DNA from: Bacteroides sp. M10
GTDB lineage: Bacteria; Bacteroidota; Bacteroidia; Bacteroidales; Bacteroidaceae
Reading direction: 5' to 3'
Length of the DNA: 64,000 nt
Assembly (NCBI RefSeq): GCF_014334015.1
Contig: NZ_CP060488.1
Location: forward strand, 5,848,501-5,912,500
Of this stretch, positions 21,942-50,600 are shown in pieces. The notes beneath the pieces were generated by a model, which was not told the origin of the DNA, searched no databases, and was given only the letters and a program-made list of their open reading frames with translations. Position numbers and translations under genes: made by a program. Each line of letters starts with the position of its first letter. The stretch's first letter is position 1.

Positions 21942-21982
21942 CAGACAAGAAGGGTATTACCGGATTTTCACCCAAGAATCTG

Positions 21983-23964: not shown

Positions 23965-24046
23965 CCGGATACTGATGCATCCATCATTTTAGAATAAAGT
24001 AATTATCATACCATCAGTATATCAGCATATTAAATAAAGATTGATT

Positions 24047-34074: not shown

Positions 34075-34102
34075 ACAGAAAAATCTATTTATTCAACCGA
34101 CC

Positions 34103-34151
34103 AAAGTGGGGCATTCGTTTGTTATATCAATAATAAACGACGTTCCACTTT
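34103..34151 (+). terminator. Terminator after the DUF3868/OmpA-like gene
   Basis: AAAGTGG ... CCACTTT outer arms and CGTTT.TTAT / ATAA.AAACG inner arms, ending in TTTTT, located 28 nt after the stop and 15 bp before the lactate permease gene. Confidence 0.75.
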
Positions 34152-34166
34152 TTAAATCTGATAATT

Positions 34167-35666
34167 ATGACCTTGATCCTTGCTGTTATTCCGGTGTTAC
34201 TGTTGATTATACTGATGGCATTTTTTAAAATGTCAGGTGATAAAAGTAGTATCATTTCTCTGATTGTGACGATGCTGATTGCTCTTTTCGGCTTCGCTTT
34301 CTCGGTAGACAATCTGTTTTACTCCTTTTTATATGGAGCATTAAAAGCTGTCTCTCCTATCTTAATCATTATTTTGATGGCTATTTTCAGTTATAATGTA
34401 TTGCTGAAAACTGAAAAGATGGAGATTATTAAACAGCAATTCGCTTCTATTTCTACCGATAAAAGTATTCAGGTGTTATTACTGACTTGGGGATTCGGAG
34501 GTCTATTGGAAGCTATGGCCGGCTTCGGAACAGCAGTAGCTATTCCGGCGGCAATTCTTATCAGTCTGGGATTCAAGCCTATCTTTTCGGCAACGGTGAG
34601 TCTGATTGCCAATAGTGTAGCTACTGCTTTCGGAGCAATCGGAACTCCGGTATTAGTATTGGCCAAAGAAACGAATTTGGATGTATTACATCTTAGTACG
34701 AATGTCGTATTGCAATTATCCGTTTTAATGTTCCTGATTCCGCTGGTTCTACTTTTCCTTACTGACTCCAAACTTAAATCGCTCCCGAAAAATATATTCC
34801 TGGCTTTATTGGTAGGCGGAGTCTCTTTAGCCAGTCAATATGTGGCAGCAAAATATATGGGTGCTGAATCTCCGGCCATAATCGGCAGTATTCTTTCTAT
34901 TATCGTAATCGTTGTTTATGGAAAACTTACTGCATCCAAAGAAGAGAAAGCACGAAAAAGTCATCTGAAAACGAAAGATATATTAAATGCATGGAGCATT
35001 TATTTACTGATTCTGTTTCTGATTATCCTGACCAGTCCGCTCTTTCCGGGATTGCGTCATACTTTAGAGAACAATTGGATTACGAGAATCAGTCTGCCTA
35101 TCAATGCGTCCACCGTCAATTATACTATTTCCTGGCTGACTCACGCCGGAGTATTGCTTTTCATCGGTACTTTTATCGGTGGATTGATTCAGGGGGCTAA
35201 AGTAAAAGATCTGTTCATCGTTCTTTGGAATACCGTGAAGCAGTTGAAGAAAACATTCATTACGGTTATCTGCCTCGTGGGGTTATCTACTATTATGGAT
35301 AGTTCCGGAATGATCGCTGTGATTGCCACAGCACTGGCTACGGCTACCGGAAGTTTGTATCCGTTATTTGCTCCGGTTATCGGTTGTCTGGGAACATTTA
35401 TCACCGGAAGCGATACATCTTCCAACATCCTTTTCGGAAAGTTGCAAGCAAGTGTGGCAGGACAGATTCATGTTAGTCCGGATTGGCTGTCTGCGGCAAA
35501 TACAGTAGGTGCCACAGGTGGTAAGATTATCTCCCCGCAAAGTATTGCTATTGCTACTTCTGCCGGAAACCAACAGGGAAAAGAAGGTGAAATACTGAAA
35601 GCGGCTATTCCGTATGCATTAGTATATGTAGCGATTACCGGAATTATTGTTTATATTTTCAGTTAA
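34167..35666 (+). CDS. L-lactate permease family transporter
   Basis: A 499-aa integral membrane protein with about 12-13 helices and the LctP family signature: WGFGGLLEAMAGFGTAVAIPAAILISLGFKP, SLIANSVATAFGAIGTPVLVLA, and the second half DSSGMIAVIATALA plus FITGSDTSSNILFG and TVGATGGKIISPQSIAIA. It probably imports or exchanges L-lactate or a related hydroxy acid. It stands alone between a terminator and a gene-poor stretch; no lactate dehydrogenase genes are adjacent. Confidence 0.93.
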   Translation: MTLILAVIPVLLLIILMAFFKMSGDKSSIISLIVTMLIALFGFAFSVDNLFYSFLYGALKAVSPILIIILMAIFSYNVLLKTEKMEIIKQQFASISTDKSIQVLLLTWGFGGLLEAMAGFGTAVAIPAAILISLGFKPIFSATVSLIANSVATAFGAIGTPVLVLAKETNLDVLHLSTNVVLQLSVLMFLIPLVLLFLTDSKLKSLPKNIFLALLVGGVSLASQYVAAKYMGAESPAIIGSILSIIVIVVYGKLTASKEEKARKSHLKTKDILNAWSIYLLILFLIILTSPLFPGLRHTLENNWITRISLPINASTVNYTISWLTHAGVLLFIGTFIGGLIQGAKVKDLFIVLWNTVKQLKKTFITVICLVGLSTIMDSSGMIAVIATALATATGSLYPLFAPVIGCLGTFITGSDTSSNILFGKLQASVAGQIHVSPDWLSAANTVGATGGKIISPQSIAIATSAGNQQGKEGEILKAAIPYALVYVAITGIIVYIFS

Positions 35667-35806
35667 TTCCCCCAAAATAGAAGAAGATAATAGTACCGTT
35701 AACAAAGTGCGATAATGCTTGACAATATTTCCGCTTAGCCATTAGATGGCAAAGCATTCAGCTCATTTTCGTACTGATTTGAACACCAATAAAAACTATA
35801 ACTCTC

Positions 35807-35862
35807 TGCCACATTTTTGTCATTTATTCAAGTATTATACGGGGGAAAACAAAAATGTGGCA
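35807..35862. repeat. 14-bp inverted repeat, extragenic
   Basis: TGCCACATTTTTGT (35807-35820) and ACAAAAATGTGGCA (35849-35862) are perfect inverted copies with a 28-nt loop. This may be one copy of a dispersed extragenic palindrome family or a terminator for the permease gene 140 bp upstream. Confidence 0.75.
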
Positions 35863-36117
35863 GTGCTTATAATCAATGACTTGGTTCTAAAAAAGCGTAG
35901 AAATAAGAGAAGTTTACAGAAAACGTATATAGAGTTTCTGCTTTTTGGAGAAGATAAAATGCACTTTCTTTTTAATCATTTGAATTTTAGTGTATTGGAT
36001 GTATCGTTTTATTCTTTTCATCACACTTCGGCCTCAACGCATCTATTTCTTTGTTGTCGGTAAAGATATCTTTTAGATAATCACTGTTTGCTTGCAGTTG
36101 AGTAATTTACCGAATGG

Positions 36118-36180
36118 ACAAGTGCTACGTAGCTGTTACACAAGTGCAGATGAGTAGTTACTCAAGTGCAACAGATTAAC
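36118..36180. repeat. 22-bp tandem direct repeats (about 2.9 units)
   Basis: Units at 36118-36139, 36140-36161 and 36162-36180 share (A/T)CAAGTGC at the start, and the first two share GTTAC at the end. The units diverge in the middle, so this is an old minisatellite-like array or spaced binding sites. Confidence 0.7.
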
Positions 36181-36347
36181 TTATGCGGATGAATTAGCTA
36201 AAAGATAAGGAGAAATTAGTAATAGATGCAATAGAACTTATTATATCTTCTGCATAATATAACTAAAACATCTAGTCGTTCATGATAAGTTGTAAAGGTG
36301 GAAAAGTATTAATACTCTATCGCTAGGATATTAATACATGAATTGTC

Positions 36348-36431
36348 GGGTATATATACCCAACACAATGGACATATATATCCAACACGCTGCGCATATA
36401 TCCCCTATATATTGGATATATATATCCAATA
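36348..36431. repeat. Cluster of AT-rich palindromes
   Basis: GGGTATATATACCC (36348-36361) and TATTGGATATATATATCCAATA-type symmetry (36410-36431, 22 bp perfect) bracket two related imperfect copies (GGACATATATATCC and GCGCATATATCCCC). Copies 1 and 2 are followed by CCAACAC or CAACAC. Confidence 0.75.
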
Positions 36432-36664
36432 ATCTATATGAAAGCCCCTACATGATGAAAGAGGTGAAGGATGCTCTCTTCTATATTTCATGCTTTGTAT
36501 CACTGTAGGCCATTGATTCATAGCTATTCAGCTAAAGGTGAAACCTATGAACCTTCTAAATGCTTCTTAATAGTTATATATTCGTTTTCAGAAGTTTAGT
36601 GTTGAGTTTATTGCTATAAGTTCTAAATTATACAGATTTTCTTTCTTCTTTTTGATTTATATTC

Positions 36665-36672
36665 TATCTTTG
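36665..36672 (+). promoter_or_regulatory. -7 promoter element (TATCTTTG) for the leader RNA and 160-aa gene
   Basis: Exact TAnnTTTG match followed by GC; the ORF begins 246 bp later, so the transcript has a long 5' region. Confidence 0.6.
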
Positions 36673-36678
36673 CAATGC

Positions 36679-36917
36679 TCTTTATCAAAATCCACAGCAG
36701 GGGAACCTGCTGTATCAATGTGGCAGGCTTTTTTATGCTTGTCCCATTCTTCTATATGGCGGTTTCGTACCCCCATGTAGGATGTTAATGCACCTACTGC
36801 CTGTTGTGGATGGTGAAGAGCAATGGGACAGGCGGAACCGCTTCTTTTATTTCCTTGAACTACCTTTCTGTTGCGCCCCATTGAACTTAATTTATTCACC
36901 ATTTAATTAAAATTCTT
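36679..36917 (+). ncRNA. Candidate structured leader RNA
   Basis: Between the promoter and the 160-aa gene the sequence can form: hairpin A, ACAGCAGG-GGAA-CCTGCTGT (36694-36713, GNRA loop); helix B, GCTTGTCCCATT (36737-36748) with AATGGGACAGGC (36822-36833), 12 bp; helix C, GTAGG.TG / CA.CCTAC (36777-36797); and helix D, GCGGTTTCG (36759-36767) with CGGAACCGC (36833-36841), which crosses helix B as a pseudoknot. CAATGGG (36821-36827) can alternatively pair with CCCATTG (36877-36883). This looks like a regulatory RNA; no known riboswitch class is recognised. All folding was done by eye. Confidence 0.55.
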
Positions 36918-37400
36918 ATGGAAAAGGTTTTAAACAATCAGCAAGTTCGCCCGGGGAGCGCGACACAATTCATGCATGCTATTTTCTCATCAGACGATGA
37001 AATGTTGACTTTTTATCTCACGCTCAATCGTTTTATAAATCCAAGTAGTTATCTGGTGGAACGCTCGGATGGAAGACGCCTAGAAGATCTGGCTAACGTA
37101 CTTCGTAATAATATGGCAGCTTTCGAGGCTGTCCACAATTATAAGAATATTAGTGTGAAAGATGTAGTCAGGGGATTTGGCATGCACATGATGAATACGC
37201 AAGTATCCAATGCCAAGCGTCTGCAAAGTGCAGATATAGTGGGTTCCTTCATAGATTGTATTGTGAATACTACGAAAAACACCTGGCAGTTTAAGCAGAT
37301 GTACTTGGTTAACTATATACATCTTGAGAATGTAAAATATTTGCAGAAACGACTTAATACAGAATCTGATGAAGAAAATAGCAGTAAAGCACTGATATAA
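36918..37400 (+). CDS. Hypothetical protein behind a structured leader
   Basis: A 160-aa soluble protein that I do not recognise. It has no signal peptide or membrane helix, is predicted mainly helical (LTFYLTLNRFINPSSYLV, RRLEDLANVLRNNMAAFEAVHNY, DIVGSFIDCIVNTTKNTWQFKQMYLVNYIHLENVKYLQKRL) and has no metal or nucleotide motif. The ATG lies after an AT-rich stretch without Shine-Dalgarno, as usual in Bacteroides. It is the only gene on its transcript, with a 240-nt structured leader before and a terminator 48 bp after. Coding quality looks real: no stop for 160 codons and normal amino acid use. Confidence 0.7.
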   Translation: MEKVLNNQQVRPGSATQFMHAIFSSDDEMLTFYLTLNRFINPSSYLVERSDGRRLEDLANVLRNNMAAFEAVHNYKNISVKDVVRGFGMHMMNTQVSNAKRLQSADIVGSFIDCIVNTTKNTWQFKQMYLVNYIHLENVKYLQKRLNTESDEENSSKALI

Positions 37401-37447
37401 ACCGATTCTTCTTGGTAGAAAATGTACCAAAAGTTCCTGAAATAAGC

Positions 37448-37486
37448 AATCACCTTTACTACAGCATTAGCGTAGTGAGGGTGATT
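37448..37486. terminator. Bidirectional terminator after the 160-aa gene
   Basis: AATCACCTTTACTAC / GTAGTGAGGGTGATT pair over 15 bp (with G-T pairs) around a 9-nt loop, between two convergent genes. Confidence 0.8.
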
Positions 37487-37532
37487 TCAACTTATTCTCT
37501 CTCACATCTTTCCTTGAAACTATTAAATATAA

Positions 37533-39314
37533 CTACAAATAATTCTTAAATATCTTATCTATTATACTTTTCTGAAGCATCACTTCCATAGTATGTGTTT
37601 CTCTATCATATTTATAATATTTCTTATCTTTACGCACATAAATATATCTAACATACTCATAACCTGTAGCACACCATTCCTCAATATCAAATCTGATATC
37701 ATTATATTCGAAAGGAAGCACTAATCTATTATTTATATCAACAGCTCCATATTTACTATCCTTAGTTACTATTACAACATCTTTAGTTACATAATCCAAA
37801 CTATCATATTCTGTAGGAAGTAATACTTTACCAGTATAATCAATAACTCCCACTTTTTTATCTTTCACAACATAATGCGCAGAAGGCCCATATTCCCACC
37901 ATGAAGAAATCGAATCATACTCGCAAGGAATTATCTGCTCACCATCTTTCATCACCACTCCCACCTTATCCTGCATCTTCACTACAAAGCTTTTCCGGCC
38001 AATGACAGGATGTATCCTTTCATATTTATCAGGAAGTAAAACATTACCTTTCGCATCCATTATATAGGCCTTGGTGTCACCTGTCAATATATATAAATCA
38101 TCGAATTGACAATAATAAATATCGTCATTTACAAAGTCAACAACAATTTCATTCTGCCAGTTTATCAATCCATAAGACAAGCCATGAGCAGCAATCAGAA
38201 ATGGGTCTAATGGTTTGATTTCCGAATATTCAAAAGGAATCACTATATTTAATTGGCCGTCCATACAGCCATATTCATTTTCCAGATTTTGAGCTATATA
38301 GACATTTTGAAACGTTCCGTCTTCCAATACTCTTCGATTTGATTCATAAAACGTCAAAAAGCAAGGTTCTGTTTTCTCTTTTGTCTTTGCAGACATAACA
38401 GCAATATGACCTTTTTTCTTTAAACTAAAAAGTTCATAATCACTTCCGTAATCAGAAACATAGTCTATTTTATCATACTCCAAAGGAAGTATGAAATGTC
38501 CCAAACTATCAATTATTCCCCACTTTCCCTGCTTTTCTACAATTCCCATTTGATATTCCTTAAAAGGAAGAGCTGAATCAAATGTACCCAAAGGAACCAC
38601 TTCCTGTAATTTTTCATTCAGATATGCAAATTTCCCATCTTTCACAACCAATCCTAAGCCATTAAAACAAACCAAGTCATCACCCTTGGAAGCCATAATA
38701 ACTTTATCATAACAAAAATTCGTCCTTTGTTTACCTGATTTATCATAAAAAGCCCATTTATCATTCTTGTTGACAAGTACCCAGTTATCATTCCAATTTT
38801 TAATCTCTGAATAATTTGGTGAAATCAGCCATTCATTCTTTGCATTGAGACAACCATATTTTCCTTGATATTTTACACATGCCATTCCCTTTCTAAAGTA
38901 GTGAGCATCATCATAAATAAAAGGAATGACAGTTGTACCTTCCTTGTCAATATATCCATATTTACCGTCTTTAGCTGCACAAGCTAAGCCATTTTTCGCA
39001 AATCCGCCTAATTTATCATAAATAAAAGGGATGGCTATTTCACCATTCATATTAAAACATCCTTTTTTACGATTCGGTTTTTCAGCCAAGACCAAATTCA
39101 AGTCACTATCGCCTGAAATTTCCAGTAATTTTCCAAAGCCAAAAATAGTATCTCCTTGATTATTCAGCCAAGTATAACCACGTTCACCACACAAAATAAC
39201 TCCCCATTCTCCTTCCTGAATATATATGATATCGTTCTCTTCTTGTGCATATCCTATAGAAGATACTAATAAAGAGAATAAAAGTAAAATATAAGTTTTA
39301 ACTATATGTTTCAT
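37533..39314 (-). CDS. WG-repeat (KWG) protein, exported
   Basis: A 593-aa protein with a signal peptide (KTYILLLFSLLVSSIGYAQ, cleaved near residue 23) and roughly ten beta-rich WG repeats of about 45 residues, each of the form YGYID..G...IPFIYDDA (for example near residues 118, 150, 255, 350, 450, 490, 520). The repeats are scaffold modules, probably a beta-propeller or solenoid for protein contact; no catalytic site is known for the family. It sits between a terminator and the RNA-repair operon on the same strand, 145 bp from HD-Pnk, without evidence of co-transcription. Confidence 0.88.
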   Translation of the reverse strand: MKHIVKTYILLLFSLLVSSIGYAQEENDIIYIQEGEWGVILCGERGYTWLNNQGDTIFGFGKLLEISGDSDLNLVLAEKPNRKKGCFNMNGEIAIPFIYDKLGGFAKNGLACAAKDGKYGYIDKEGTTVIPFIYDDAHYFRKGMACVKYQGKYGCLNAKNEWLISPNYSEIKNWNDNWVLVNKNDKWAFYDKSGKQRTNFCYDKVIMASKGDDLVCFNGLGLVVKDGKFAYLNEKLQEVVPLGTFDSALPFKEYQMGIVEKQGKWGIIDSLGHFILPLEYDKIDYVSDYGSDYELFSLKKKGHIAVMSAKTKEKTEPCFLTFYESNRRVLEDGTFQNVYIAQNLENEYGCMDGQLNIVIPFEYSEIKPLDPFLIAAHGLSYGLINWQNEIVVDFVNDDIYYCQFDDLYILTGDTKAYIMDAKGNVLLPDKYERIHPVIGRKSFVVKMQDKVGVVMKDGEQIIPCEYDSISSWWEYGPSAHYVVKDKKVGVIDYTGKVLLPTEYDSLDYVTKDVVIVTKDSKYGAVDINNRLVLPFEYNDIRFDIEEWCATGYEYVRYIYVRKDKKYYKYDRETHTMEVMLQKSIIDKIFKNYL

Positions 39315-39459
39315 GATATCAGAATTACAACCATCATATTATTCTCAAATATAATGGATTTAATTCTGATACACAATAATTCTTCTAGCAAATAATAATT
39401 CTATTTCTCATCATCAAATGAGTGGCTCTAGAATCACCTTTATCAACTTTTCATGTTAC

Positions 39460-40569
39460 TTATACCACATGATATACGACTTCATGCGCTTCCGCCAGTT
39501 GAGGAACCTCCAGTTTATCTAACATTTTATCTAAAACAGATTCAGGAAGTGCATATTCCCTGCTTTTATTTTGTTGACGCCAAATGTGGTATGGTTGTTC
39601 CAGATAGACTATCTTTACTTTTGCACCATAATCAACAAACAAATCAATCAATTGAGTACGCATCTGACGAGTTATGTTAGTAGCATTCCAAACAAAGTCC
39701 TGACCTTTGCGGAGATACGTTCTAGCTTCCTCTTTCGCTGTTTGCACTACCCCTCCATTCGCAGACTTATCCGTAGGACTCAATTTGTGTTTTCGACGAA
39801 TGACGTCCAAACTCACCACCGGAACATCTATGCCAGCAGATTGAATATAATAATCCTTCCCCATTCCCGGAAGTCCTGACAACATCGTCACTTCACATTT
39901 GAACTGTTCGTGAGGGACATAATCGATATAACTGTCTTCAGTATGGAAGTAATGAAAACGTGCATAATCAGTGGCAAATTCTCTTGGTTTCTTCCAACAA
40001 TCCTGTTCACGGCAGAAAATCTCAAACAGTTCCAGTGCTTCCAGCAGTTCATTCTTATCTTCACAAATGCGTCCTCTGATATCAGCATCGGCCAACATCT
40101 TTAGCAATGAAGTATCTACCCGTAAAGAAGCTTCACAGAGTTTCTTCACAGAGTCAGGCTTCTCCATCAGCCAAACAGGTAATCCATGGTACCGGACTAA
40201 AGATGCAATCTGTTCCCGGATATGGAATGGAGCAGGACAATCCCGGTATAAAATAGTGCGGACAGTGTACTCTCCTTTTCTGGCATGTCTTTTAGCAGAT
40301 ACCCGCCCCTCTCCTTCATCCACGGAAGTTGAACGTTTTTCAACATCATGCAACAAGGCAGATGTCCAAATAAGTTCTTTCTCCAAAGTAGAAAGAGAAT
40401 GATAAGCGGAAGACTGCTGCAATGCCTCCAACACCATACGGGTATGTTCGGCTACACTGCCCTCGGCATGATAACGAATATCCTGCTGAACTGTATTCAT
40501 TTCGCGCACCCACTCGAACTGTTGTTCGAGTGAGCACCACGCTTTATCTTCTATCAATTTCCAATTCAT
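39460..40569 (-). CDS. HD-Pnk: HD-domain phosphoesterase fused to polynucleotide 5'-kinase
   Basis: A 369-aa two-domain protein. Residues about 20-190 are an HD domain (H34 and H42 region, ALLHDVEKR with His-Asp at 74-75, a later H-x-x-x-x in RYHGLP, and DADIRGR). Residues about 225-369 are a P-loop kinase (SGLPGMGKDYY, residues 230-241; D-V-I-R-R-K; WNATNITRQMR; YLEQPYHIWRQQNKSR lid). This matches the bacterial HD-Pnk family described in Runella: the HD part removes 2',3'-cyclic or 3' phosphates and the kinase part phosphorylates 5'-OH ends, making ends ready for a classic ligase. It starts 2 bp after the RNA ligase gene's stop. Third gene of the RNA-repair operon. Confidence 0.86.
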   Translation of the reverse strand: MNWKLIEDKAWCSLEQQFEWVREMNTVQQDIRYHAEGSVAEHTRMVLEALQQSSAYHSLSTLEKELIWTSALLHDVEKRSTSVDEGEGRVSAKRHARKGEYTVRTILYRDCPAPFHIREQIASLVRYHGLPVWLMEKPDSVKKLCEASLRVDTSLLKMLADADIRGRICEDKNELLEALELFEIFCREQDCWKKPREFATDYARFHYFHTEDSYIDYVPHEQFKCEVTMLSGLPGMGKDYYIQSAGIDVPVVSLDVIRRKHKLSPTDKSANGGVVQTAKEEARTYLRKGQDFVWNATNITRQMRTQLIDLFVDYGAKVKIVYLEQPYHIWRQQNKSREYALPESVLDKMLDKLEVPQLAEAHEVVYHVV

Positions 40570-40571
40570 CT

Positions 40572-41279
40572 TTATTCCTCCTTTTCATTATTAAATTCCC
40601 AAACAAGCGGGGCACGCTTCCAGTTACGTGTCCAATGCTCGTCTGTTTTAACATGTCCTTTCCGCACATACTTAAATACATTATGTGCAAATTCGCTTAC
40701 CGGATATTCTCCGACATTGCGGCTGACTACTCCCTCACGGGTACAAACCTCTTTCGTCCACGGATCACAAGAGCCGAAGATAGCCGGTTCTTGTGACATA
40801 CGGATGATTTCCTGTTTTAATAGTTCCGGTGTCAAACCGGAAACAGGCTCTATCTTCAACTCCGGAACAGTAGGAAAGTCGAATAAAGCTGCATAAAACT
40901 TTACTTCTTCCCACGACAACCACTGATCCATACAGCGGACTGCAAAAACATAAAAATGCGTTTCTAATCGCTGATATTCTATGGAATGTACGGCATATAG
41001 ATTCTCTCCAAAGATTTCTATATCACCCAAATCATTCTTTATCAATTCCCAACGTTCACGCAGTTGCCTCGTCCAAGGTGAAGTAGTAGGAGCAGCATGC
41101 GAACGGGCAAAAACACCCCACTGACTTAAACAATTATTCTCTCCATCCAGCTTCTCGGTATGCACCAATGTCCGAATCCGTTGGATGTCCTCCCAATACG
41201 TATGGTTAATCCGGTCGTCACTAGTCGTTCCGGGAGAGAACGGATAGTGATAAGTGCGACCATATTTCTCTGATATCAT
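40572..41279 (-). CDS. ATP-dependent RNA ligase family protein
   Basis: A 235-aa nucleotidyltransferase-fold ligase. Motif I is TEKLDGENN with the adenylated Lys at 43 (KxDG); GVFARSHAAPT fits motif Ia; EIFGENLYAVHSIEY is motif III; REGVVSRN motif IV; FKYVRKGHVKTDEHW motif V with the two lysines. It would seal 3'-OH/5'-phosphate RNA ends using ATP, the ends created by HD-Pnk. It lacks any extra C-terminal domain, unlike T4 Rnl2. It lies between RtcB and HD-Pnk, 41 bp after rtcB and 2 bp before hd-pnk. Confidence 0.86.
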   Translation of the reverse strand: MISEKYGRTYHYPFSPGTTSDDRINHTYWEDIQRIRTLVHTEKLDGENNCLSQWGVFARSHAAPTTSPWTRQLRERWELIKNDLGDIEIFGENLYAVHSIEYQRLETHFYVFAVRCMDQWLSWEEVKFYAALFDFPTVPELKIEPVSGLTPELLKQEIIRMSQEPAIFGSCDPWTKEVCTREGVVSRNVGEYPVSEFAHNVFKYVRKGHVKTDEHWTRNWKRAPLVWEFNNEKEE

Positions 41280-41320
41280 TTTCTTCTTTTTTCAATTAAA
41301 TACTAATTTCTTTCATCGCA

Positions 41321-42718
41321 TCACTCCTTATTCATTCGAACGATGCGAGGCATAAATTTACCCTGCACTTCCACCAGCGTTTCCTGTGTATACATCACTC
41401 TGTCAATATCCTTATATGCCAGTGGCATTTCTTCCACGCTCCCACCAATCAAAGTCACTCCCGCCTGCGACAGTAGTTTCTTCAAAGCCGATTGCGTAAA
41501 ACTATCTTTTGCCTTCTGGCGGGACATCGCCCTGCCGGCTCCATGAGAAGCCGAATTTAAAGCAGCTTCCATCCCTTTACCACAAACCAGATAACCTGCA
41601 GTAGCCATGCTACCGGGAATTAATCCCGCTTGTCCTTTCTGTGCCGGAGTAGCCCCTTTGCGATGCACGATTGCCATACGCCCCGGTGCTATTTCCTCTC
41701 TCCAAGCGAAGTTATGATGGTTGTTGACATTAGCGAGCGGCTTCAACCCTAATGCTCTCGCCAAATTCAAATGAATCCGCTCATGACAGGCACGGGCATA
41801 ATCGCCTGCCAGATTCATACTCATCCAATACTCCTGCCCCGCTTCAGTGTTTAAATCCAGCCAGGCAAAATGCTGTGCTTCACAGGGAAGCCTGCACACT
41901 TCACGTGCCAACAGGCTGTAATGTTTGGCAATGGCAGCTCCCAATCCTCGTGAACCGGAATGCGACAACAATGCCAGATAATTTCCTTCCGGAAGATTCA
42001 ACACGTTATTTTCTTGCAGAGCGATCTCGCCGAACTCCACAAAATGGTTGCCACCACCGGAACTCCCCAGTTGACGTACTGCCTTTCCATGCAAATCTCT
42101 CAACAAAGGCGTCAAACGGAATTCTTCCCTATCCAACACCTCATGTTCCTGCTCAAAACCCAATCCTCCATCCATACCGAAATGGGTGAAATCTTTCAAG
42201 GCTTCTTTCATCTGATAGGTATATCGTTTCAGGAAGTCGGCGCTGGCATCAAATACCGTCAGGCTCATCCGACAACCGATATCAACGCCTACGGCATACG
42301 GAATCACGACATTATCCGTAGCAAGCACTCCACCGATAGGTAACCCGTATCCGGCATGAGAGTCAGGCATCAGTGCTCCGGCCACCGTTACAGGTAAGCG
42401 CATAGCCAGGTTCATCTGTTGTTTGGCAAGCGTTTCGATAAATTTACCTCCATAGGTTTTATACATCAACGGCTCATCCAATAAATCATAAGCTATAAAC
42501 TCTTTCGCTATGATAGTAGGCGAAAGGCGTTCGGCCAGCTTATTCCAAATTTCATTATTTTTGTAAGATTCGGGATGCTCGAGTATATCGCTCAATGTCA
42601 TTTCAATCTGTTCTTTAGTGTTGTATTTGCAATGTTTGCTCACAATGTCCACTACCAGACTACGGGCAACATTATCCCGGTATCCCAGTTTGCTTAAATC
42701 TTTTAATCGTATTCCCAT
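41321..42718 (-). CDS. rtcB: RNA-splicing ligase RtcB
   Basis: A 465-aa RtcB. Conserved parts: MPDSHAGYGLPIGGVLATDN, YAVGVDIGCRMSL with metal-binding Asp and Cys, GSSGGGNHFVEFGEI, LSHSGSRGLG, NVNNHHNFA, VHRKGATPAQKGQAGLIPGSMATAGYLV and SHGAGRAMSR with the guanylated His. It joins 2',3'-cyclic-phosphate or 3'-phosphate ends to 5'-OH with GTP and Mn2+. ATG 42716-42718 is chosen because RtcB homology starts there; the frame is open 36 codons further. It lies first in the RNA-repair operon behind a leader of about 340 nt. Confidence 0.95.
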   Translation of the reverse strand: MGIRLKDLSKLGYRDNVARSLVVDIVSKHCKYNTKEQIEMTLSDILEHPESYKNNEIWNKLAERLSPTIIAKEFIAYDLLDEPLMYKTYGGKFIETLAKQQMNLAMRLPVTVAGALMPDSHAGYGLPIGGVLATDNVVIPYAVGVDIGCRMSLTVFDASADFLKRYTYQMKEALKDFTHFGMDGGLGFEQEHEVLDREEFRLTPLLRDLHGKAVRQLGSSGGGNHFVEFGEIALQENNVLNLPEGNYLALLSHSGSRGLGAAIAKHYSLLAREVCRLPCEAQHFAWLDLNTEAGQEYWMSMNLAGDYARACHERIHLNLARALGLKPLANVNNHHNFAWREEIAPGRMAIVHRKGATPAQKGQAGLIPGSMATAGYLVCGKGMEAALNSASHGAGRAMSRQKAKDSFTQSALKKLLSQAGVTLIGGSVEEMPLAYKDIDRVMYTQETLVEVQGKFMPRIVRMNKE

Positions 42719-43063
42719 ACTCTTTTTTCGTTCGCATACAGCATTCCCTGTCGGCCTCACCGGCAGACAACAATGCAATACACGTGATACCAATGCTTTG
42801 GATATGGATATGAAATACCCCACCACCGCATTGAAGTGATTAATTTAAAATATAAATAGTGATTGCAGGACTAATCAACCATTGCCGCTTGTTAGTAGAA
42901 TTGCGGTCAATATAAGAACCATAGGTTCAATGTAAAAACAATAAGTTGCAAAGCCTCATCCTCCCGGCGAGACAACTTAGTCCTAATTTGAAAATATTAT
43001 AACTCCAACATAATTAATACCCTTTCCATCTGTTTTAAAGGGTGAATACTCATTTTATCGCAG
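42719..43063 (-). ncRNA. Long structured 5' leader of the RNA-repair operon
   Basis: The promoter at 43064-43095 predicts a leader of about 340 nt before rtcB. Visible stems on the minus strand: AAAGGG/CCCTTT (about 43024-43047), AAGTTG/CAACTT closing a 24-nt loop with further G-C pairing (42943-42978), CCGC/GCGG (42882-42903) and a TGTCGG/CCGGCA stem near 42746-42765. No start codon with a convincing reading frame is found in it. It may be an attenuator or repair-responsive RNA; no known class was recognised. Confidence 0.4.
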
Positions 43064-43095
43064 CAAAAGTAGTGCTTATTTTTATTTCCTCCAAA
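43064..43095 (-). promoter_or_regulatory. Promoter of the RNA-repair operon
   Basis: On the minus strand TTTG (43095-43092), 20 bp, TACTTTTG (43071-43064): an exact Bacteroidales promoter. Start point predicted near 43057. Confidence 0.75.
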
Positions 43096-43191
43096 GAATA
43101 ATAGACAAATTTTAGCGTTCAGTAACTATCCGAGGGAAGTTTTGCCAAGAGTTTCTGTCAAATTGCTATTTTTTACTTCCTTTATATCCCC

Positions 43192-43199
43192 TATCTTTG
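43192..43199 (+). promoter_or_regulatory. -7 promoter element (TATCTTTG) of the thioredoxin-like gene
   Basis: Exact TAnnTTTG match followed by GC, 32 bp before the ATG at 43232. Confidence 0.6.
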
Positions 43200-43231
43200 C
43201 AATAGATAAAAACAAAAAGAAAGAATAGTAT

Positions 43232-43729
43232 ATGAAACTAATGAAAGGTTTATTGAGTGCTTTTGCCGTTGTATTGGCAACCACAGCTTGTGCAGGCAAC
43301 AGCGGAGAAAATAAAAAGAGTAATGAATCAACAAAGGAGGACAATAAAATGGAAGTAGTAGCATTAAATAAAGTAGATTTTTTAAAGAAAGTATATAATT
43401 ATGAAGCCAATCCGAACGATTGGAAATTTGAGGGCAGCCGTCCTGCTATCGTAGATTTCTATGCTACCTGGTGCGGTCCATGTAAAGTGATGCACCCCAT
43501 TCTGGAAGAACTTAGCAAAGAATATAGCGGTAAAGTAGATATCTACCAGATTGATGTGGACAAAGAACAAGATCTGGCAGCGGCATTCGGTATCCGCAGC
43601 ATCCCTACCCTATTGATGATTCCGATGAAAGAGGAACCTAGAATCATGCAAGGAGCTATGCCCAAAGACCAGCTTAAAAAAGCAATTGATGAATTTCTTC
43701 TGAAACAAAATAACGAAGTAAAGCAATAG
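43232..43729 (+). CDS. Thioredoxin-like lipoprotein
   Basis: A 165-aa exported protein with a lipoprotein signal (LSAFAVVLATTAC, Cys 20), a flexible charged linker (residues 22-40), and a thioredoxin domain from about residue 45 with the active site WCGPCK (Cys 81 and 84), VDIYQIDVDKEQDLAAAFGIRSIPTLLMIP (cis-Pro) and a closing helix. It is anchored to the membrane facing the periplasm and probably reduces or exchanges disulfides there; Bacteroides has several such thioredoxins. Monocistronic: a promoter at 43192-43199 and a strong hairpin after the stop. Confidence 0.9.
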   Translation: MKLMKGLLSAFAVVLATTACAGNSGENKKSNESTKEDNKMEVVALNKVDFLKKVYNYEANPNDWKFEGSRPAIVDFYATWCGPCKVMHPILEELSKEYSGKVDIYQIDVDKEQDLAAAFGIRSIPTLLMIPMKEEPRIMQGAMPKDQLKKAIDEFLLKQNNEVKQ

Positions 43730-43758
43730 ACTTCGACTTTTTTCTCGTCATGGTGACT

Positions 43759-43793
43759 GCCCCCTATTCGTCTTTTGAAGATGAATAGGGGGC
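43759..43793. terminator. Bidirectional terminator between thioredoxin and metallophosphoesterase genes
   Basis: GCCCCCTATTC / GAATAGGGGGC (11-bp perfect arms) around a small loop containing TCTT/AAGA pairing; lies between convergent genes. Confidence 0.85.
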
Positions 43794-43811
43794 TAGTTCT
43801 AATTAAACTCA

Positions 43812-44960
43812 TTATAGTTTTCTCTGAACACCGTCGTCACCAACGACGTAATAAACTCCATTGTCTATCAATACAGCCCGTCCACGCTTTTTCTTCCGAT
43901 TCTCCTTATTGTCAACATTGACAGCGATGACTTTACCATTATAAAAGGTTGAAATATCCTTGAAGATAGTGTGCCCCACAAGGATATGTTTTACCATATA
44001 ACGATCCAACATCATTTGTAAAGAGTCCTGTACCAACGGTTTATACTTGGGATCTTCTCTCACCAGGCCGCGATACCAGATCGGACCGTCATTGCCATAC
44101 AGAAAATCAGTCAATGGAGAAAGTGCCTTACGCTCTTTTTTGCTCATGAAAAGTGCCCGGCTCATTTCCTCGTTCACAGTGGGGATATTCAAGTCCTTAT
44201 CATAGAATAATTTTCCTAATCCGGCATGTACATATAAATCGGTTCCAATAATTTGCATTGTATTACGTGTTGCAAGCCAACGCCCCAATTCGGTATTTGT
44301 ACCGAATAATGAAGGATATTCCACTCCCAGTTTTTCTGCCAGCAATTTATATTTATCTTTTGTATAGCGAAGATCGTTAGACAACACCAAAGCCTCATGG
44401 TTTCCCAAAAGGAAAGAGACATGGCCTCCCGCTTTAGCCGCTTCATCTTCTAATTTATAGAACAGCCAAAAGATCTGCAGTACATCCTTGCCACGGTCGA
44501 AAATATCTCCGATAATCACCAAATGATTGCTACCGAAATTCCATTGGTATTTATCATTAATTACTCCGTTTCCTTGCAACAGACTAATCACGCAATCCAG
44601 CCGCCCATGAGGATCGGACATCACAAAAACTTTTTCCGGACGGGTATATTGCCACTCCGGTCTTTTCAATGGATGGAGTTTTACATCAAATGGATACCGT
44701 CCCTCATGATCCGTCACACGGAAACTGAAATCTTTAGGTAATGTCGCATAAGTCTTGTCTGTAATCCGTCCTTTCTTATTGACATTAATAACCCGTGTAC
44801 TACCGTCTGCCTGATAGAGTATATAGGGTCCGTCACCAGACAATTTCTCTTTTTTCTCTTTCTTCTTATCTCCTGAATGATAAGTTCCGGCCTGAATGCC
44901 GGAACTTATTAAAACGAGAACAAGAGTAGAAAGAAATAATCTCAAAAAACGAGTGCTCAT
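43812..44960 (-). CDS. Exported calcineurin-like metallophosphoesterase 1
   Basis: A 382-aa protein with an N-terminal signal sequence (FLRLFLSTLVLVLISSGIQAG; no lipobox Cys), a Lys-rich linker, and the metallophosphoesterase motifs VMSDPHGR, IIGDIFDRGKDV, FLLGNHEALVL, YVHAGL and LVGHTIF that bind two metal ions. The core resembles serine/threonine phosphatase or Ap4A hydrolase-type enzymes, so a phosphoprotein, nucleotide or other phosphate ester is the substrate; which one is unknown. It is the last gene of the SusCD operon, 20 bp after its paralogue, and shares its domain layout throughout. Confidence 0.9.
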   Translation of the reverse strand: MSTRFLRLFLSTLVLVLISSGIQAGTYHSGDKKKEKKEKLSGDGPYILYQADGSTRVINVNKKGRITDKTYATLPKDFSFRVTDHEGRYPFDVKLHPLKRPEWQYTRPEKVFVMSDPHGRLDCVISLLQGNGVINDKYQWNFGSNHLVIIGDIFDRGKDVLQIFWLFYKLEDEAAKAGGHVSFLLGNHEALVLSNDLRYTKDKYKLLAEKLGVEYPSLFGTNTELGRWLATRNTMQIIGTDLYVHAGLGKLFYDKDLNIPTVNEEMSRALFMSKKERKALSPLTDFLYGNDGPIWYRGLVREDPKYKPLVQDSLQMMLDRYMVKHILVGHTIFKDISTFYNGKVIAVNVDNKENRKKKRGRAVLIDNGVYYVVGDDGVQRKL

Positions 44961-44980
44961 ATTCTTTTCTTTCTTGAAGT

Positions 44981-46147
44981 TTATTTTTTAATCGTTACTA
45001 GTTCTCCTTCGTCATTGATGGCTTTAATATCATCTCCTTCAATAACCACGGCACGAGTCTCTTTTTCAAAAGCCTTGGGATGATTAACACAAATATCATA
45101 TACCTTTTTATTATAGGTATACTTCACACGACTATTTTCCGTATGGCCGATAATAATACGTTTGACATCATATTTAGCCAGAAGTTTATCTACATCCGCT
45201 TCCTTTATCGGACTGTACTCACTGCCAGTCTTAACCATTCCACGATACCACAACGGACCGTTATAACTATCACTATAAAGGAAATCGGCAATCTCCGGAT
45301 ATTGTTTTTTCCGTTCCTCTTTTGAAAGGTAAATGCTCTTGCTCACCAGTTCATTGATTTCGGGAATCGTCTCTTCGCGTTCCATAAACGCCTTACTCAA
45401 TCCTGCATGAACATAAAGGTTTTCACCTACAATCTGAATGGTGTTTTTAGAACGCAGCCAGTTACCCATCACATTCGTCAGTCCCCACATTTTTCCATAG
45501 GTCATGTTCATCGCTCTTTGCGAAAGAGTGTTGTACTTGGCATACGTATATTTCAGATTATCACGCATTATCATTTCTTCGTGATCCCCCAAGATAGTTG
45601 TCACTCTGCCACCAACAGCTTTCGCCTCAAATTCCAATTTGTATATGAGCCATAAAATAGGAAGTACGTCTGCTCCACGATCGAAAATATCACCATCAAT
45701 CACCAAATGGTTACTGCCATATATCCATTCATATTTATCATTAATCACTTCCCCTGTTTTCAGAATAGCGGCAAACAAGTCGAAACGCCCGTGAAGGTCG
45801 GATACGGCAAATGTTTTAGCATACTCGGTACGGTCTTCCCATGCCGGACGTTCGAAATTCTCAATCTTATTAATGGGTACCTGAAAAAGGAGTTGATTAT
45901 CATCCGAATACACATCCAGTTTCAATCCGGCCGGTAATCCGGATTCTTCACGAATGTTCAATGCATTATCTTTAGTCACTTCCAGGATTTTAAGTTTACC
46001 GTTTTCATAGAAAAGGTAAGGGCCATCATTACGGAAATGAGTGATTTCAGCTATATCCGGTCCCACGGGAGTCAGATCTTCCCCGCACGAATAAAAGGCC
46101 GTGATGAACAAACCCAAAAGGAAATAGATGCTATATATCTTTTTCAT
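44981..46147 (-). CDS. Exported calcineurin-like metallophosphoesterase 2, lipoprotein
   Basis: A 388-aa paralogue of the next gene, with a lipobox (LGLFITAFYSC, Cys 21) followed by GEDLTPVGPD. Motifs: AVSDLHGRFD, VIDGDIFDRGADV, TTILGDHEEMI (GDHE in place of the usual GNHE; the Asn is replaced by Asp), YVHAGLS and IIGHTEN. The Asn-to-Asp change touches a metal and phosphate ligand of the family, so activity could be altered. It begins 24 bp after SusD and is probably anchored near the SusCD complex on the outer membrane. Confidence 0.9.
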   Translation of the reverse strand: MKKIYSIYFLLGLFITAFYSCGEDLTPVGPDIAEITHFRNDGPYLFYENGKLKILEVTKDNALNIREESGLPAGLKLDVYSDDNQLLFQVPINKIENFERPAWEDRTEYAKTFAVSDLHGRFDLFAAILKTGEVINDKYEWIYGSNHLVIDGDIFDRGADVLPILWLIYKLEFEAKAVGGRVTTILGDHEEMIMRDNLKYTYAKYNTLSQRAMNMTYGKMWGLTNVMGNWLRSKNTIQIVGENLYVHAGLSKAFMEREETIPEINELVSKSIYLSKEERKKQYPEIADFLYSDSYNGPLWYRGMVKTGSEYSPIKEADVDKLLAKYDVKRIIIGHTENSRVKYTYNKKVYDICVNHPKAFEKETRAVVIEGDDIKAINDEGELVTIKK

Positions 46148-46171
46148 AATTTCTATACGTTAATGCGTTAA

Positions 46172-47629
46172 TTAATGCAATTCATATTCCGGATTCTGAA
46201 CCATATTCTCATTGTACTCCATTTCGTGGTTAGGAACAGGAAGAACGATTTTATAATAACTCCAATCAAACTCTACTGCTTCATTGGGAACTTCGCTCAA
46301 ATAATCTTCACGTATCACTTTCTTGTTATTTCTAAGTAAATCAAAGAAACGTTGTCCCTCTCCCCAGAATTCAATGCGACGCTGTTCAAGCACCAGATCC
46401 AGATTTATATCTTCATCTGCCACAGCATCCAGATCCTTACCCGTACGTGCATAAATAGGTTTCAGATACTTGCGCGTATTAGGTATATCATTCCTCTTAA
46501 TCGCAGCTTCAGCCGCATTCAGATAGAGTTCCGACAGACGGAAAACCGGAATATTGGCATCTTCATACGATTTAGAACCTTGTGCCGGATATTTCAAGCA
46601 ATAAGGTTTACTACTACTCTCCGTAGACACCATCTTACTACGAACATCATCGGAATTGTCTTTCATGTAGTCTTTCCAATACTTTTCGGTGGCTATCAGA
46701 TTATACTTGGTGCTAAGATAACCGATGGATGATTTTCCCGGACTATCAGTTGTCAGATTCACAATTTCGAACAACAGTTCACTATTGAACGGAGTAGCCC
46801 ATATCTTGGCATATTCATCATTGGTCCACAACTTATAGCCTTGTTTTTCTGCACCTTTAATAGCTTCGGCAGCCACATCGTATGCCTCTTTGTCATTCCC
46901 CATATAGAGGTAAACCCGGCTTAATAATGTCATTGCCGCCCATTTATTGATTTTACCCTCTTTCTTTACCGAACGAAGCAGCTTCACCGCATCTGTCAGG
47001 TCGTCTGTGATGGCCTTATAACATTGGGCAGTCGTATTGCGGGAAGGTTTGATATTCTTATCTTCTACCACTTTATCAATGATGGGCACAGCCAATGATG
47101 CCCCGTTATCTTTTAGATAAGGATACCCGTAAATACGTGTCATATCGAACAGCAACAAGGCACGTATTGCCAAAGCCTCTCCTTTCAAGTCATTATAATA
47201 CTCCTGCTCTGTCAGCTTCTCCAGTTTCGGAGTTGTAATTTCCCGATCGGGAACAAGCTTTATCTTTTCAATATCCCTGAATAAAATGTTCAGGTTCTTA
47301 CCAATACCGTAGTACATTCCCCAGAAGCCACTAGGTCCATTCGTCTTATTATACTTGAATGTATAGAAACTGACATTGGTGCTGGAAGACTTATAAGATT
47401 TCATGTCATCTCCCCTCAAATCACCATAACAGAACATATCTGCTCCATAATAACTGGATGACTGCATACTGCTGTATGCACCGTTCAGCACAAATTCAAA
47501 ATCTCTTAATTCGGTCAATGAACCATCGGTTTCTATAGCTGTGGAAGATTGCAAATCCAACCAGTCATTTCCGCAACTACTCAATAAGGTTGCAAAGACA
47601 CCTAAAGCTATATATTTTATCTTTTTCAT
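46172..47629 (-). CDS. SusD/RagB family nutrient-binding lipoprotein (metallophosphoesterase locus)
   Basis: A 485-aa SusD homologue: lipobox Cys 19 (VFATLLSSC), WLDLQSSTAIETDGSLTELRDFE, LRALLLFDMTRIYG and TPR-like helices, FRLSELYLNAAEAAIKRND, and EQRRIEFWGEGQRFFDLLRNNK. The helix content and C-terminal VPNHEMEYNENMVQNPEY are typical. It follows the SusC gene by 26 bp and precedes two phosphoesterase genes by 24 bp, so the ligand is perhaps a phosphorylated compound; that is inference from the operon. Confidence 0.95.
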   Translation of the reverse strand: MKKIKYIALGVFATLLSSCGNDWLDLQSSTAIETDGSLTELRDFEFVLNGAYSSMQSSSYYGADMFCYGDLRGDDMKSYKSSSTNVSFYTFKYNKTNGPSGFWGMYYGIGKNLNILFRDIEKIKLVPDREITTPKLEKLTEQEYYNDLKGEALAIRALLLFDMTRIYGYPYLKDNGASLAVPIIDKVVEDKNIKPSRNTTAQCYKAITDDLTDAVKLLRSVKKEGKINKWAAMTLLSRVYLYMGNDKEAYDVAAEAIKGAEKQGYKLWTNDEYAKIWATPFNSELLFEIVNLTTDSPGKSSIGYLSTKYNLIATEKYWKDYMKDNSDDVRSKMVSTESSSKPYCLKYPAQGSKSYEDANIPVFRLSELYLNAAEAAIKRNDIPNTRKYLKPIYARTGKDLDAVADEDINLDLVLEQRRIEFWGEGQRFFDLLRNNKKVIREDYLSEVPNEAVEFDWSYYKIVLPVPNHEMEYNENMVQNPEYELH

Positions 47630-47655
47630 ACTTATTCATTTATAGATTAATGCAC

Positions 47656-50600
47656 TTAGAATTTCACTTCCAAACCGAATGTATAAGTTCTCATCGGAGG
47701 AGTATCCCAACTAGGTGATGAACCCGATTCGGGGTCAATATAATCGTATGCCGCCCAAGTTAACAGGTTATTGCCCGATGCATACAGGCGTATATTGTCT
47801 ATACCCACTTTTCGGGTCCATGTCTTCGGCAGTGTAAAACCGAAAGTCAGATTCTTCAGACGAACATAATCTCCACTGTATAAACGACGTGTGGTAGCAT
47901 AATCGGTCATGGAAATTGATCTACCGACTACAAAACGTTCGATACTCGTTTCATCCCCCTCCTTCTGCCAGCGTTTCCGGTAATAAATAGGAATATTCAG
48001 TGTTCCGTCGCCACCATGTTCCAGTTTGCTTGCCGAACCATCATAGTTCCATGCTCCAAAAGAGAAATTCACGTTAAAATTCAGATCAAACCACTTATAG
48101 GAGATGCTGTTACCGAGTCCACCGGTGATAGTAGGATCGGCACATTGCAGTATCACTTTTTCCGCACTACGCGGATCTTTAGTAGTTTCTTTGTTCAGAT
48201 TTCCATTTTCATCTGTCGTATTCTTATAGAACATCGGCTCACCGTCTGCCGGGTCGATGCCTGCAAATTCAATCATATAATAGGTAGAATAGGGCAAACC
48301 TACCTTATGAATAGATGTTCCGCTGGTTACTTGTTTCAAATCTCCGTCCAACTTCAGGATTTTATTGGAATTATGTCCCAGATTCAAACTTGTGCTCCAA
48401 CGAAAATCTTTTGTCTCGATATTAGTTGAACGAATTTCCAATTCATATCCCTTGTTTTGTAATTTACCAATGTTGGCAAGATAACTTGAGAAACCTGTTG
48501 CAAGAGATAATGGCCGGCTGTAAAGCAGATTTTTCGTTGTACGGACATAATATTCAAATGTAACATTCAGTCTGTTGTCGAAGAATCCCAGGTCGATACC
48601 GGAGTTGAAGTTGTAGTTGGTTTCCCAAGTCAGTTCCTTGTTTTCCAGTTGCGACTGCGTGATACCCGGATTATCGTTATAATTACTGGTCAGACTGCTC
48701 AATCCCATATATCCATAATAAGAAGACGGCAGAGTGCCGTTCACACCATAAGAAACTCTAAGTTTCAGGTCGCTTAACCAGTTCTGAAGAGGTTTCATAA
48801 AACTCTCGCTACTCACTCTCCATGCACCGGACAACGACCAGAAATTTCCCCAACGATTCTCTCTCGCCAATCGCGAACTTCCGTCTGTTCTCCAACTCGC
48901 TCCCAGATAGTATTTGTTGTCATAATCATAGTTGGCACGCGTAATATAAGAAACAATACGCGTCGTACTGTTAGAACCTCCCATACTCTGATACACTACA
49001 CCATTGTTGACTTCCGGTTTATCCCAGCGTGCAAAATTAGAGATAGTAGTTCCCAATCCATCCGACTCCTTACTGTTGATTTCATAACCAACCAAAAGGT
49101 CCAGATTGTGTTTTTTCTTGATCTTTGTCTGATAAGTCAGAATATTAGACCATGTCATATTGGTAATATCATTATAATCTTTGCTGAAACGTCCGTTATC
49201 ATCGTCACCGTCACTGGTACGCGGGTCTTTCCATGCACGAGACTTGTTCATCACAAAATCATAGCTGAATGTAGACGCAAACTTGATTCCTTTCCAAATG
49301 TCGAATGATGCATATACGGTATTGAAAGAACGAGTCGCATATTCTCTCTTAAAATTATAAGAATTTGATAACATCGGGTTACGGTCATCCAATTTGATTA
49401 ATGCACGGTTCCAGGTGCCGTCTTCATTCCATATAGGGTCAGACGGTGTGGCTCCATTACGCGTACCGTAAATTGGAGAAGTATACGATGTACCCTCCGA
49501 ATAAGTATCCTGATTCACTTTGGAGAACTGTATCTTTGCACCGATATTCATCCATTTAGCCATCTGATAGTCTACATTCAAACGTGCAGAAATACGTTCC
49601 AGACCGGAGTTTATCGTAACACCATCCTGCTTCATATAGCCGATAGATGTATAGTATTTAATCTTTTCCTGTCCGCCGGAAGCCGAAAACTCGTAATTTT
49701 GGTGACTACCGTTACGGAACAGATAATCATCCCAATTCACAAAACCACACCAAGGGATCGGTGCATACTGGTCAATATTTGAATCGGCATAAGCCCATGC
49801 TTCATTCTCGGTCATCCCCTGATGAAGTCCTACCTCATCATCGGTCTTACCGCTATAAGTTAAAGCATAATTCCGAAGCCCCTCGTGGATCAGGTTACGA
49901 CGTTCCTGTCCGCCCATCAATTCGCGGAAAGGCATGGCAAAATTAGAGAATCCCCAATCCGATTTCAATTTAAAGACCGGTTTACCTGCTTTTCCTTGTT
50001 TCGTGGTAATAATGACAACGCCATTCGCTGCACGTGAACCATAAAGTGAAGCAGCAGCGGCATCCTTGATAACAGTGATGCTTTCAATATCCGATGTATT
50101 CAAAGTAGACATTACATCCAAACCAGAATCACTACCGGATGCACCAATATTACCCGACAATACGGGAACACCATCCACTACATACAGCGGAGAATTGGAG
50201 GCATTGAACGAACCCATACCACGGATACGGATGGACGTTGACGAACCCGGTATACCCGAACCGGTATTTACACTGACACCGGGAGCCGCCCCCTCCAACA
50301 TCTGTTGGAAAGATACATTAGGCACATCTTTCACAGCATCTGTCTTTACGATACTGGCAGAACCTGCATAAGCCGATTTCTTGAAAGTACCATATCCCGT
50401 TACAATCACTTCGTCCAACAGGTTATTATCCACTTTCAGGATTATGCTCATCGGCTTGCCGGGAGTTGCAACGACTTCCTGTGACGTATAACCGATATAA
50501 GAAACCATCAGAGTCACTTTCTTGTCTGTAACTTCCAGATGGAAATTACCATCCATATCAGTCATCATACCGTTAGTTGTACCTTTCACAATGACATTAG

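Follow-up and report, generated by a model that had tools for sequence, protein, structure and literature searches.

Repeated loss of prfH from a probable Bacteroides operon with two RNA-sealing chemistries

Introduction

Why does one bacterial gene cluster encode two RNA ligases of different sealing chemistry? The question is raised by rtcB, rnl and hdPnk, three adjacent genes in a 64,000-nucleotide stretch of DNA (the window) whose source is assigned here to the ovatus/xylanisolvens group of Bacteroides. The original prediction, made from the sequence alone, was that their products together rejoin RNA whatever the chemistry of its broken ends. The comparison with relatives shows that a gene for the ribosome-rescue factor PrfH, the usual partner of RtcB, was deleted from between rtcB and rnl, and this ancestry suggests that RtcB acts on a substrate of its own.

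Results

prfH was deleted from between rtcB and rnl

The order rtcB, rnl, hdPnk on the minus strand was confirmed in the window, with gaps of 41 bp and then 2 bp and with all three open reading frames (ORFs) unbroken. The coordinates, Pfam families and motifs bear out the predicted arrangement. The leading gene, rtcB (41321..42718), encodes a 3'-phosphate/5'-OH RNA ligase of 465 residues that starts from the ATG at 42718. A start at the GTG at 42826, which would lengthen RtcB, was dropped because the ATG at 42718 matches the N-terminus of the relatives. The next gene, rnl (40572..41279), encodes a minimal ATP-type RNA ligase of 235 residues, which consists of the nucleotidyltransferase domain only. 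The last gene, hdPnk (39460..40569), encodes 369 residues with an HD phosphoesterase-type domain (about residues 1–191) and a polynucleotide kinase domain (about 223–369). The three genes probably form one operon.

The triple as it stands is not the original unit. In close relatives, a gene of 206–208 codons lies between rtcB and rnl, and its product is PrfH; that of B. acidifaciens scores 320 bits on TIGR03072 against a cut-off of 166.65. In the window, no prfH lies directly downstream of rtcB. The 41-bp gap (41280..41320, minus strand) was compared with the intact prfH of one genome of the genus (G403, locus L109) and of B. acidifaciens (L010, L112). It is the scar of a deleted prfH, which reads ATG AAA GAA, the start of prfH, and then continues with the sequence that follows prfH in the relatives. 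A larger remnant with 26 identical residues is left in B. xylanisolvens, and the final prfH codons remain in B. stercorirosoris.

The search with each protein covered 119 genomes from the genus. This RtcB was found, at an identity of 74% or more, in 20 of them, not counting 21 further genomes with weaker RtcB matches (at most 40% identity, and one 30-residue fragment at 60%). prfH is intact beside rtcB in 8 of the 20 and lost in the other 12. The loss occurred repeatedly within the genus: the junctions of the 12 losses and of the window comprise 10 distinct sequences, and seven losses are counted on the best RtcB tree under a loss-only rule, an inexact number in which four prfH-less genomes make one clade with a support of only 40.

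The PrfH search itself gave matches in 118 of the 119 genomes at E 0.001, almost all of them no stronger than is usual for ordinary release factors. G362, G385 and G392 each have a PrfH at 40–44% with a different RtcB adjoining. In the nearest genome compared (G001), which has the same operon with a protein identity of 98–99%, the search for a prfH elsewhere gave only matches at the release factor level (best E 2.7e-7). Among named records, the most similar RtcB is that of Bacteroides xylanisolvens XB1A (96%). G001 also encodes a second, shorter RtcB (C1:1137787-1138842, locus L140; 389-residue ORF, 36% identical), and the neighbours of this gene are by eye unlike PrfH or the ligase.

RtcB is maintained after the loss of PrfH

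The ratio of nonsynonymous to synonymous substitution rates (dN/dS) was determined for three pairs of operons. The members of each pair share one scar, so that their divergence postdates the loss of prfH. For RtcB, the ratio was 0.093 in the pair of the window and G001, 0.072 in L115/L117 and 0.068 in L116/L121. Because these values are low in pairs sharing one scar, RtcB is kept under purifying selection without PrfH. For the ligase and HD-Pnk, the ratios were 0.128 and 0.102 in L115/L117, and 0.068 and 0.171 in L116/L121. The values of 0.398 and 0.322 in the window/G001 pair are weak ones, based on 5 changes in the ligase and 11 in HD-Pnk. Continuing selection is thus strong for RtcB, and the data are weaker for rnl and hdPnk in the window/G001 pair.

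The three enzymes carry intact motifs

RtcB matches PF01139 with an E-value of 2.3e-78. The motifs DIGC, GNHFVE, HSGSRGLG, NHHN, HRKGATPA and HGAGRAMSR are present, and the alignment to P. horikoshii RtcB shows the active-site Cys/His motifs for Mn and GMP. Here and below, motifs go by the customary names of their families. The protein is not of the RtcB2 type: it reached 129.6 bits on TIGR03073 against a cut-off of 271.8, and 156.9 bits on another RtcB2 model against a cut-off of 407 (model lengths 356 and 379 positions). By these scores, it belongs to a lineage apart from the RtcB2 models.

Rnl matches PF09414 (RNA_ligase) with an E-value of 6.4e-29 and has motif I of the ATP-dependent RNA ligases, KLDGEN with the catalytic K43, together with the further nucleotidyltransferase motifs FGEN, EGVV and KYVRK. 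In Rnl2 and Rnl5 proper, the nucleotidyltransferase domain is accompanied by an accessory domain at the N- or C-terminus. Such a domain cannot fit in this protein, with the catalytic Lys at 43, motif V at 202–211 and a length of 235 residues. Every one of the top 19 Foldseek matches is an RNA ligase. In a fold list ranked by Z-score, T4 Rnl2 (9.4) and T4 DNA ligase (9.0) differ by less than 1, which is a tie. The identity to Deinococcus DRB0100 is 33% over 217 aligned columns.

HD-Pnk matches PF01966 (HD, E 1.7e-6) and PF13671 (AAA_33, E 4.3e-20). The N-terminal HD domain has its metal-binding His and Asp residues (H42, HD74-75, H95, H128 and D163), and the C-terminal kinase domain has the P-loop GLPGMGKD at 232–239. 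The protein is a predicted phosphoesterase and 5'-kinase, with 27% identity to the Deinococcus homologue DRB0098.

The genes are linked in the genus, with RtcB mostly apart outside it

In the 119 genomes of the genus, the ligase was matched in 18 (17 full, one broken in G394). HD-Pnk was matched in 22, of which 17 are full, two are fragments (G394 and G408) and three are weak (G004, G012 and G424). All 17 full ligases sit in genomes with this RtcB (hypergeometric 7e-18, kinship uncorrected). In 16 of these 17 genomes all three are contiguous, and in the remaining one (G433) the rnl-hdPnk pair is on a separate contig. Therefore, their neighbourhood is not by chance. Together with the families and motifs, this contiguity supports the predicted set of three RNA-repair enzymes with two sealing chemistries in one probable operon.

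In a sample of 277 genomes of the class, the ligase was found in five, each with an adjacent HD-Pnk gene. RtcB of this type (E <1e-100, identity of 48% or more) was found in 44 of the 277, and somewhere in all five ligase genomes (8.3e-5, kinship ignored), but it adjoins the ligase only in G001. A pattern scan of a genome collection then gave 300 places with a ligase relative. Among the best 80 of these 300, which were examined, RtcB lies near the ligase in three of the nine loci titled Dysgonomonas (L022, L030 and L035). The original prediction was to be refuted if the genes were rarely adjacent in other Bacteroidales. On this, the evidence is split between the genus, where contiguity is the rule, and the wider samples, with one of five in the class, three of nine in Dysgonomonas and a ligase in only 5 of 324 genomes of the order.

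Relatives hold a larger repair kit

In the 80 loci, hdPnk accompanies the ligase in 78, on the same strand within 300 bp in 76 and with about 800 bp between in two (L026 and L029). The loci without it are that of D. mossii (L030), which has RtcB near the ligase, and a contig end (L039). RtcB occurs within 6 kb in 23 loci and PrfH in 12. Ten of these PrfH genes are intact, upstream and on the same strand; the other two are the B. xylanisolvens XB1A remnant (L009) and a gene at the far end on the opposite strand (L053). Tpt1 is found within 6 kb in 10 loci, 8 of them on the same strand.

The fullest arrangement, rtcB-prfH-tpt1-rnl-hdPnk, belongs to Dysgonomonas sp. ZJ279 (L022). It is followed (L022:7952-10545) by genes for an NrtR-Nudix regulator and a NADAR protein and, further on, a macro domain. 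The accessible part of PMC9503650 links Nudix, NADAR and macro domains to processing of the Tpt1/KptA product. In D. capnocytophagoides (L035), rnl and hdPnk look broken, unlike rtcB, prfH and tpt1. In Runella zeae and Runella sp. (L068, L084), Tpt1 is just upstream of rnl-hdPnk. Further neighbours in the relatives are an M41-peptidase protein, TatD, two RlaP nucleotidyltransferases, a WYL regulator encoded on the opposite strand and TROVE/Ro60. The TROVE/Ro60-type genes occur in five of the 80 loci by clustering (L040, L041, L042, L044 and L052), and that of L052 was confirmed by Pfam.

In Serratia sp. H1w (L077), rtcB2, prfH, rnl and hdPnk stand in a row. This is a single locus with a different RtcB lineage, whose RtcB2 scores 581 bits on TIGR03073 and whose PrfH scores 311 bits on TIGR03072. 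In E. coli, rnl-hdPnk is present in 981 of 5426 complete genomes, every one chromosomal. In the three loci examined (L144, L145 and L146), the pair lies between emrB and luxS, and one ligase has an internal stop. Its annotation is merely RNA ligase family protein and ATP-binding protein or AAA family ATPase. E. coli muskdeer13-4 (NZ_CP128596.1) has rtcB2-prfH about 2.5 Mb from rnl-hdPnk. That HD-Pnk with a ligase is already known from bacteria, as the original prediction stated, agrees with the five class genomes, the E. coli genomes and the Deinococcus homologues.

Ligase relatives were found in 46 of 72,556 plasmid records, several of which are as large as chromosomes, with the best match in a stretch of a Proteus record without annotation, and in 24 of 50,697 phage records. 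In a viral collection, hdPnk is close to rnl in 4 of 12 loci, on contigs of 597, 362, 429 and 37 kb.

Surroundings of the operon

ARAGORN found no RNA gene and no tRNA in the whole window, and Rfam found no RNA family in 34000–48000. An associated non-coding RNA (Y RNA or tRNA-like) was rejected on these two results. Between 39200 and 43300, 7 sigma-70-type promoters were found against 9.4 expected from shuffling, on which no claim is made. The same region has 6 terminator-like sites against 2.7 expected, 5 within rtcB or hdPnk and 1 upstream of rtcB; they are left uninterpreted. PADLOC gave no match for four window proteins, and for RtcB, Rnl and HD-Pnk none up to E 1. A catalogued anti-phage defence system was therefore rejected for the three. 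No mobile marker was noticed in the window, where no further test was aimed at mobility of the operon.

Directly after hdPnk lies a gene for a WG-repeat protein (PF14903; 37533–39314, minus strand). This protein is also encoded in G001 (87% identity over the 80 residues compared). In B. xylanisolvens XB1A, a permease gene lies about 350 bp after hdPnk and leaves no space for it. Upstream of rtcB, two tandem calcineurin-type phosphoesterase genes (PF00149; 43812–46147, minus strand) stand beside an ORF that is SusD-like by eye. An ORF at 53742–54944 (plus strand) resembles an insertion sequence transposase, as judged from sequence alone. An apparent biotin synthesis cluster occupies 19527–25539 (plus strand). 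Its 804-residue ORF (19527–21941) is presumably a fusion of biotin synthase and DAPA aminotransferase, followed by ORFs that we take to be bioF-, bioG-, bioC- and bioD-like.

Discussion

The operon is rather likely to be a merger of two modules, with RtcB, originally together with PrfH, for rRNA cut by toxins, and HD-Pnk with Rnl for breaks of the tRNA type. In the first module, PrfH would free the peptide from a ribosome with cut 16S rRNA, and RtcB would then join the 2',3'-cyclic phosphate to the 5'-OH using GTP. In the second, the HD domain would strip the 2',3'-cyclic or 3'-phosphate, the kinase would put on a 5'-phosphate, and the ligase would then seal. The steps assigned to each enzyme are those of its family. 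The likeliest substrate of the second module would be tRNA broken in the anticodon loop by toxins, by effectors of competitors or by the cell's own anti-phage nucleases. In the lineage of the window, with prfH gone, RtcB would work without a dedicated release factor. The predicted role in defence or stress is plausible.

According to the accessible part of PMC9223846, RtcB2-PrfH shields E. coli from colicin E3, a 16S rRNA cutter, and hyper-expressed RtcB2 alone is likewise protective. In jumbo phages, RtcB and ATP-type ligases occur in varied combinations, which are read as specialised and non-redundant in the accessible part of PMC7824862. A split of substrates is favoured because of these two sources and the ancestral PrfH. 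The merger is also supported by the families, motifs and folds of the enzymes, the intact and remnant prfH genes of relatives, the seven losses on the best tree, the low RtcB ratios and the activities described for DRB0098 and DRB0100. Two sets of relatives count for it as well: the Serratia sp. H1w locus is a second assembly with RtcB2-PrfH before rnl-hdPnk, and three of the four rnl-hdPnk loci of the viral collection are on contigs of 362–597 kb.

Several points weigh against the merger of two modules. The single rtcB-rnl-hdPnk transcript would follow from the spacing of the genes, and no measured activity of these enzymes from any Bacteroides is known to us, with a search limited to the papers cited here. 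Pfam found no defence gene besides the three in question among 8 neighbourhood proteins. The ligase module is patchy and decaying in places: rnl and hdPnk are both broken in G394, hdPnk is broken in G408, which has no ligase match, and G366 has neither gene. Such patchiness and decay are expected of a defence trait or of a dispensable one. In the accessible part of PMC9223846, RtcB2-PrfH gave no protection from tRNA-cutting toxins. This result fits the split of substrates and is silent on the ligase of the present operon.

A less likely explanation is that both ligases mend a common set of tRNA breaks, with one of them standing in depending on whether the ends have been healed, and that the operon widens the range of ends that can be repaired. 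RtcB seals 3'-phosphate to 5'-OH, Rnl seals 3'-OH to 5'-phosphate and HD-Pnk converts one kind of end into the other; the selection on RtcB without PrfH also suggests that it is able to act outside ribosome rescue. However, HD-Pnk and Rnl should be able to handle either end type by themselves, and RtcB would then not be there to supply a missing chemistry. Moreover, its ancestral operon partner is PrfH, a ribosome factor, and the multi-ligase sets of jumbo phages are not read as redundant. The repair of any end chemistry, as originally predicted, is right in the enzyme set, and the presence of RtcB is better explained by another substrate.

It is doubtful that the full rtcB-prfH-tpt1-rnl-hdPnk island is one staged ribosome-and-tRNA pathway. 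HD-Pnk and Rnl would form 2'-phosphate junctions, which Tpt1 would clear with NAD+, and strains like that of the window would have shed ribosome rescue and kept both sealing routes. If HD-Pnk removed 2'-phosphates fully, Tpt1 would be left with little work. The wide occurrence of Tpt1 in bacteria is called a longstanding conundrum in the accessible part of PMC6333775. A staged pathway, if true, would give bacterial Tpt1/KptA its long-missing substrate. The loci with tpt1 beside rnl-hdPnk (Dysgonomonas sp. ZJ279, the two Runella and others) offer a concrete candidate for it.

That HD-Pnk and the ligase mend the ends of DNA, or of RNA-containing DNA, and are linked to RtcB by stress co-regulation only, is very unlikely. 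In the accessible part of PMC1997131, DRB0098-DRB0100 is induced by radiation and was investigated as a putative operon for DNA repair, and DRB0098 phosphorylates a DNA oligonucleotide; the tie of T4 DNA ligase with T4 Rnl2 points the same way. In contrast, DRB0100, alone or with its operon partners, did not ligate DNA in the same part of PMC1997131. PF09414 is an RNA ligase family, in line with the Foldseek matches, and the genes that accompany the pair in the operons of relatives serve RNA repair (PrfH, Tpt1, RlaP and TROVE).

Least credible is a decaying accessory operon, in which the prfH loss was a first step and the genes still present no longer serve a function: the patchy RtcB (20 of 119), the prfH losses (12 of 20), the broken or absent rnl/hdPnk (3 of 20) and the window/G001 ratios of the ligase and HD-Pnk, which are not low but come from few changes, speak for it, whereas the RtcB ratios far under 1 in all three post-loss pairs, the ranges of 0.068–0.128 for Rnl and 0.102–0.171 for HD-Pnk in the two better-sampled pairs, and the three intact ORFs of the window speak against it.

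With the merger of two modules, one genetic unit unites two repair routes that most studies treat separately, in a gut Bacteroides whose genes can be deleted one by one. The 12 prfH-less and 8 prfH-bearing genomes of one genus are a natural comparison for the contribution of PrfH to RtcB. Since rnl-hdPnk has a match in the laboratory strain E. coli W also, the pair is testable in a standard host.

Comparison with known systems

For HD-Pnk beside an ATP-dependent ligase, we take the HD-Pnk of Runella slithyformis to be a precedent. It reportedly removes 2',3'-cyclic, 3'- and 2'-phosphates and often lies beside a ligase (Munir et al. 2018). Like the window, Deinococcus radiodurans has the HD-Pnk and ligase families in one small cluster, DRB0098-DRB0099-DRB0100, whose DRB0098 and DRB0100 genes were recognised by the residues K40, H81, D82 and R371. 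They are described as a 5'-polynucleotide kinase and an ATP adenylyltransferase, respectively, in the accessible part of PMC1997131. The cluster differs from the window, where RtcB leads the operon: a microbial PARG-type gene lies between the two, and no RtcB is among the 10 annotated features of 12.6 kb, in a gene table that is incomplete.

RtcB2-PrfH of E. coli ATCC25922 shares with the Bacteroides operon the order of RtcB then PrfH, which is ancestral here; the Bacteroides RtcB is far under the RtcB2 cut-offs, and prfH is deleted in the window. From Pnkp1-Rnl-Hen1 and Pnkp-Hen1, the operon differs by its HD-domain phosphatase and the added RtcB, and no Hen1 was found among the neighbours scanned by Pfam. 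The Salmonella rtcBA/Ro60/Y RNA operons are likewise RtcB-led and serve RNA repair, and TROVE/Ro60 occurs in some relatives of the present operon. They differ in that no RtcA, RtcR or TROVE is among the 8 window proteins scanned by Pfam, and no Rfam match lies in 34000–48000.

No description of rtcB-prfH-rnl-hdPnk as one operon was found in a literature search that excluded the likeliest source, Burroughs and Aravind 2016, which is no proof of absence. Neither pair is new: HD-Pnk with the ligase and RtcB with PrfH are both known already and both widespread, and only their joining is lineage-specific. The novelty lies in their union within one operon, in the lineage-specific spread of this union and in prfH having been lost repeatedly. 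The operon is not a wholly new system; it is a larger RNA repair kit in reduced form.

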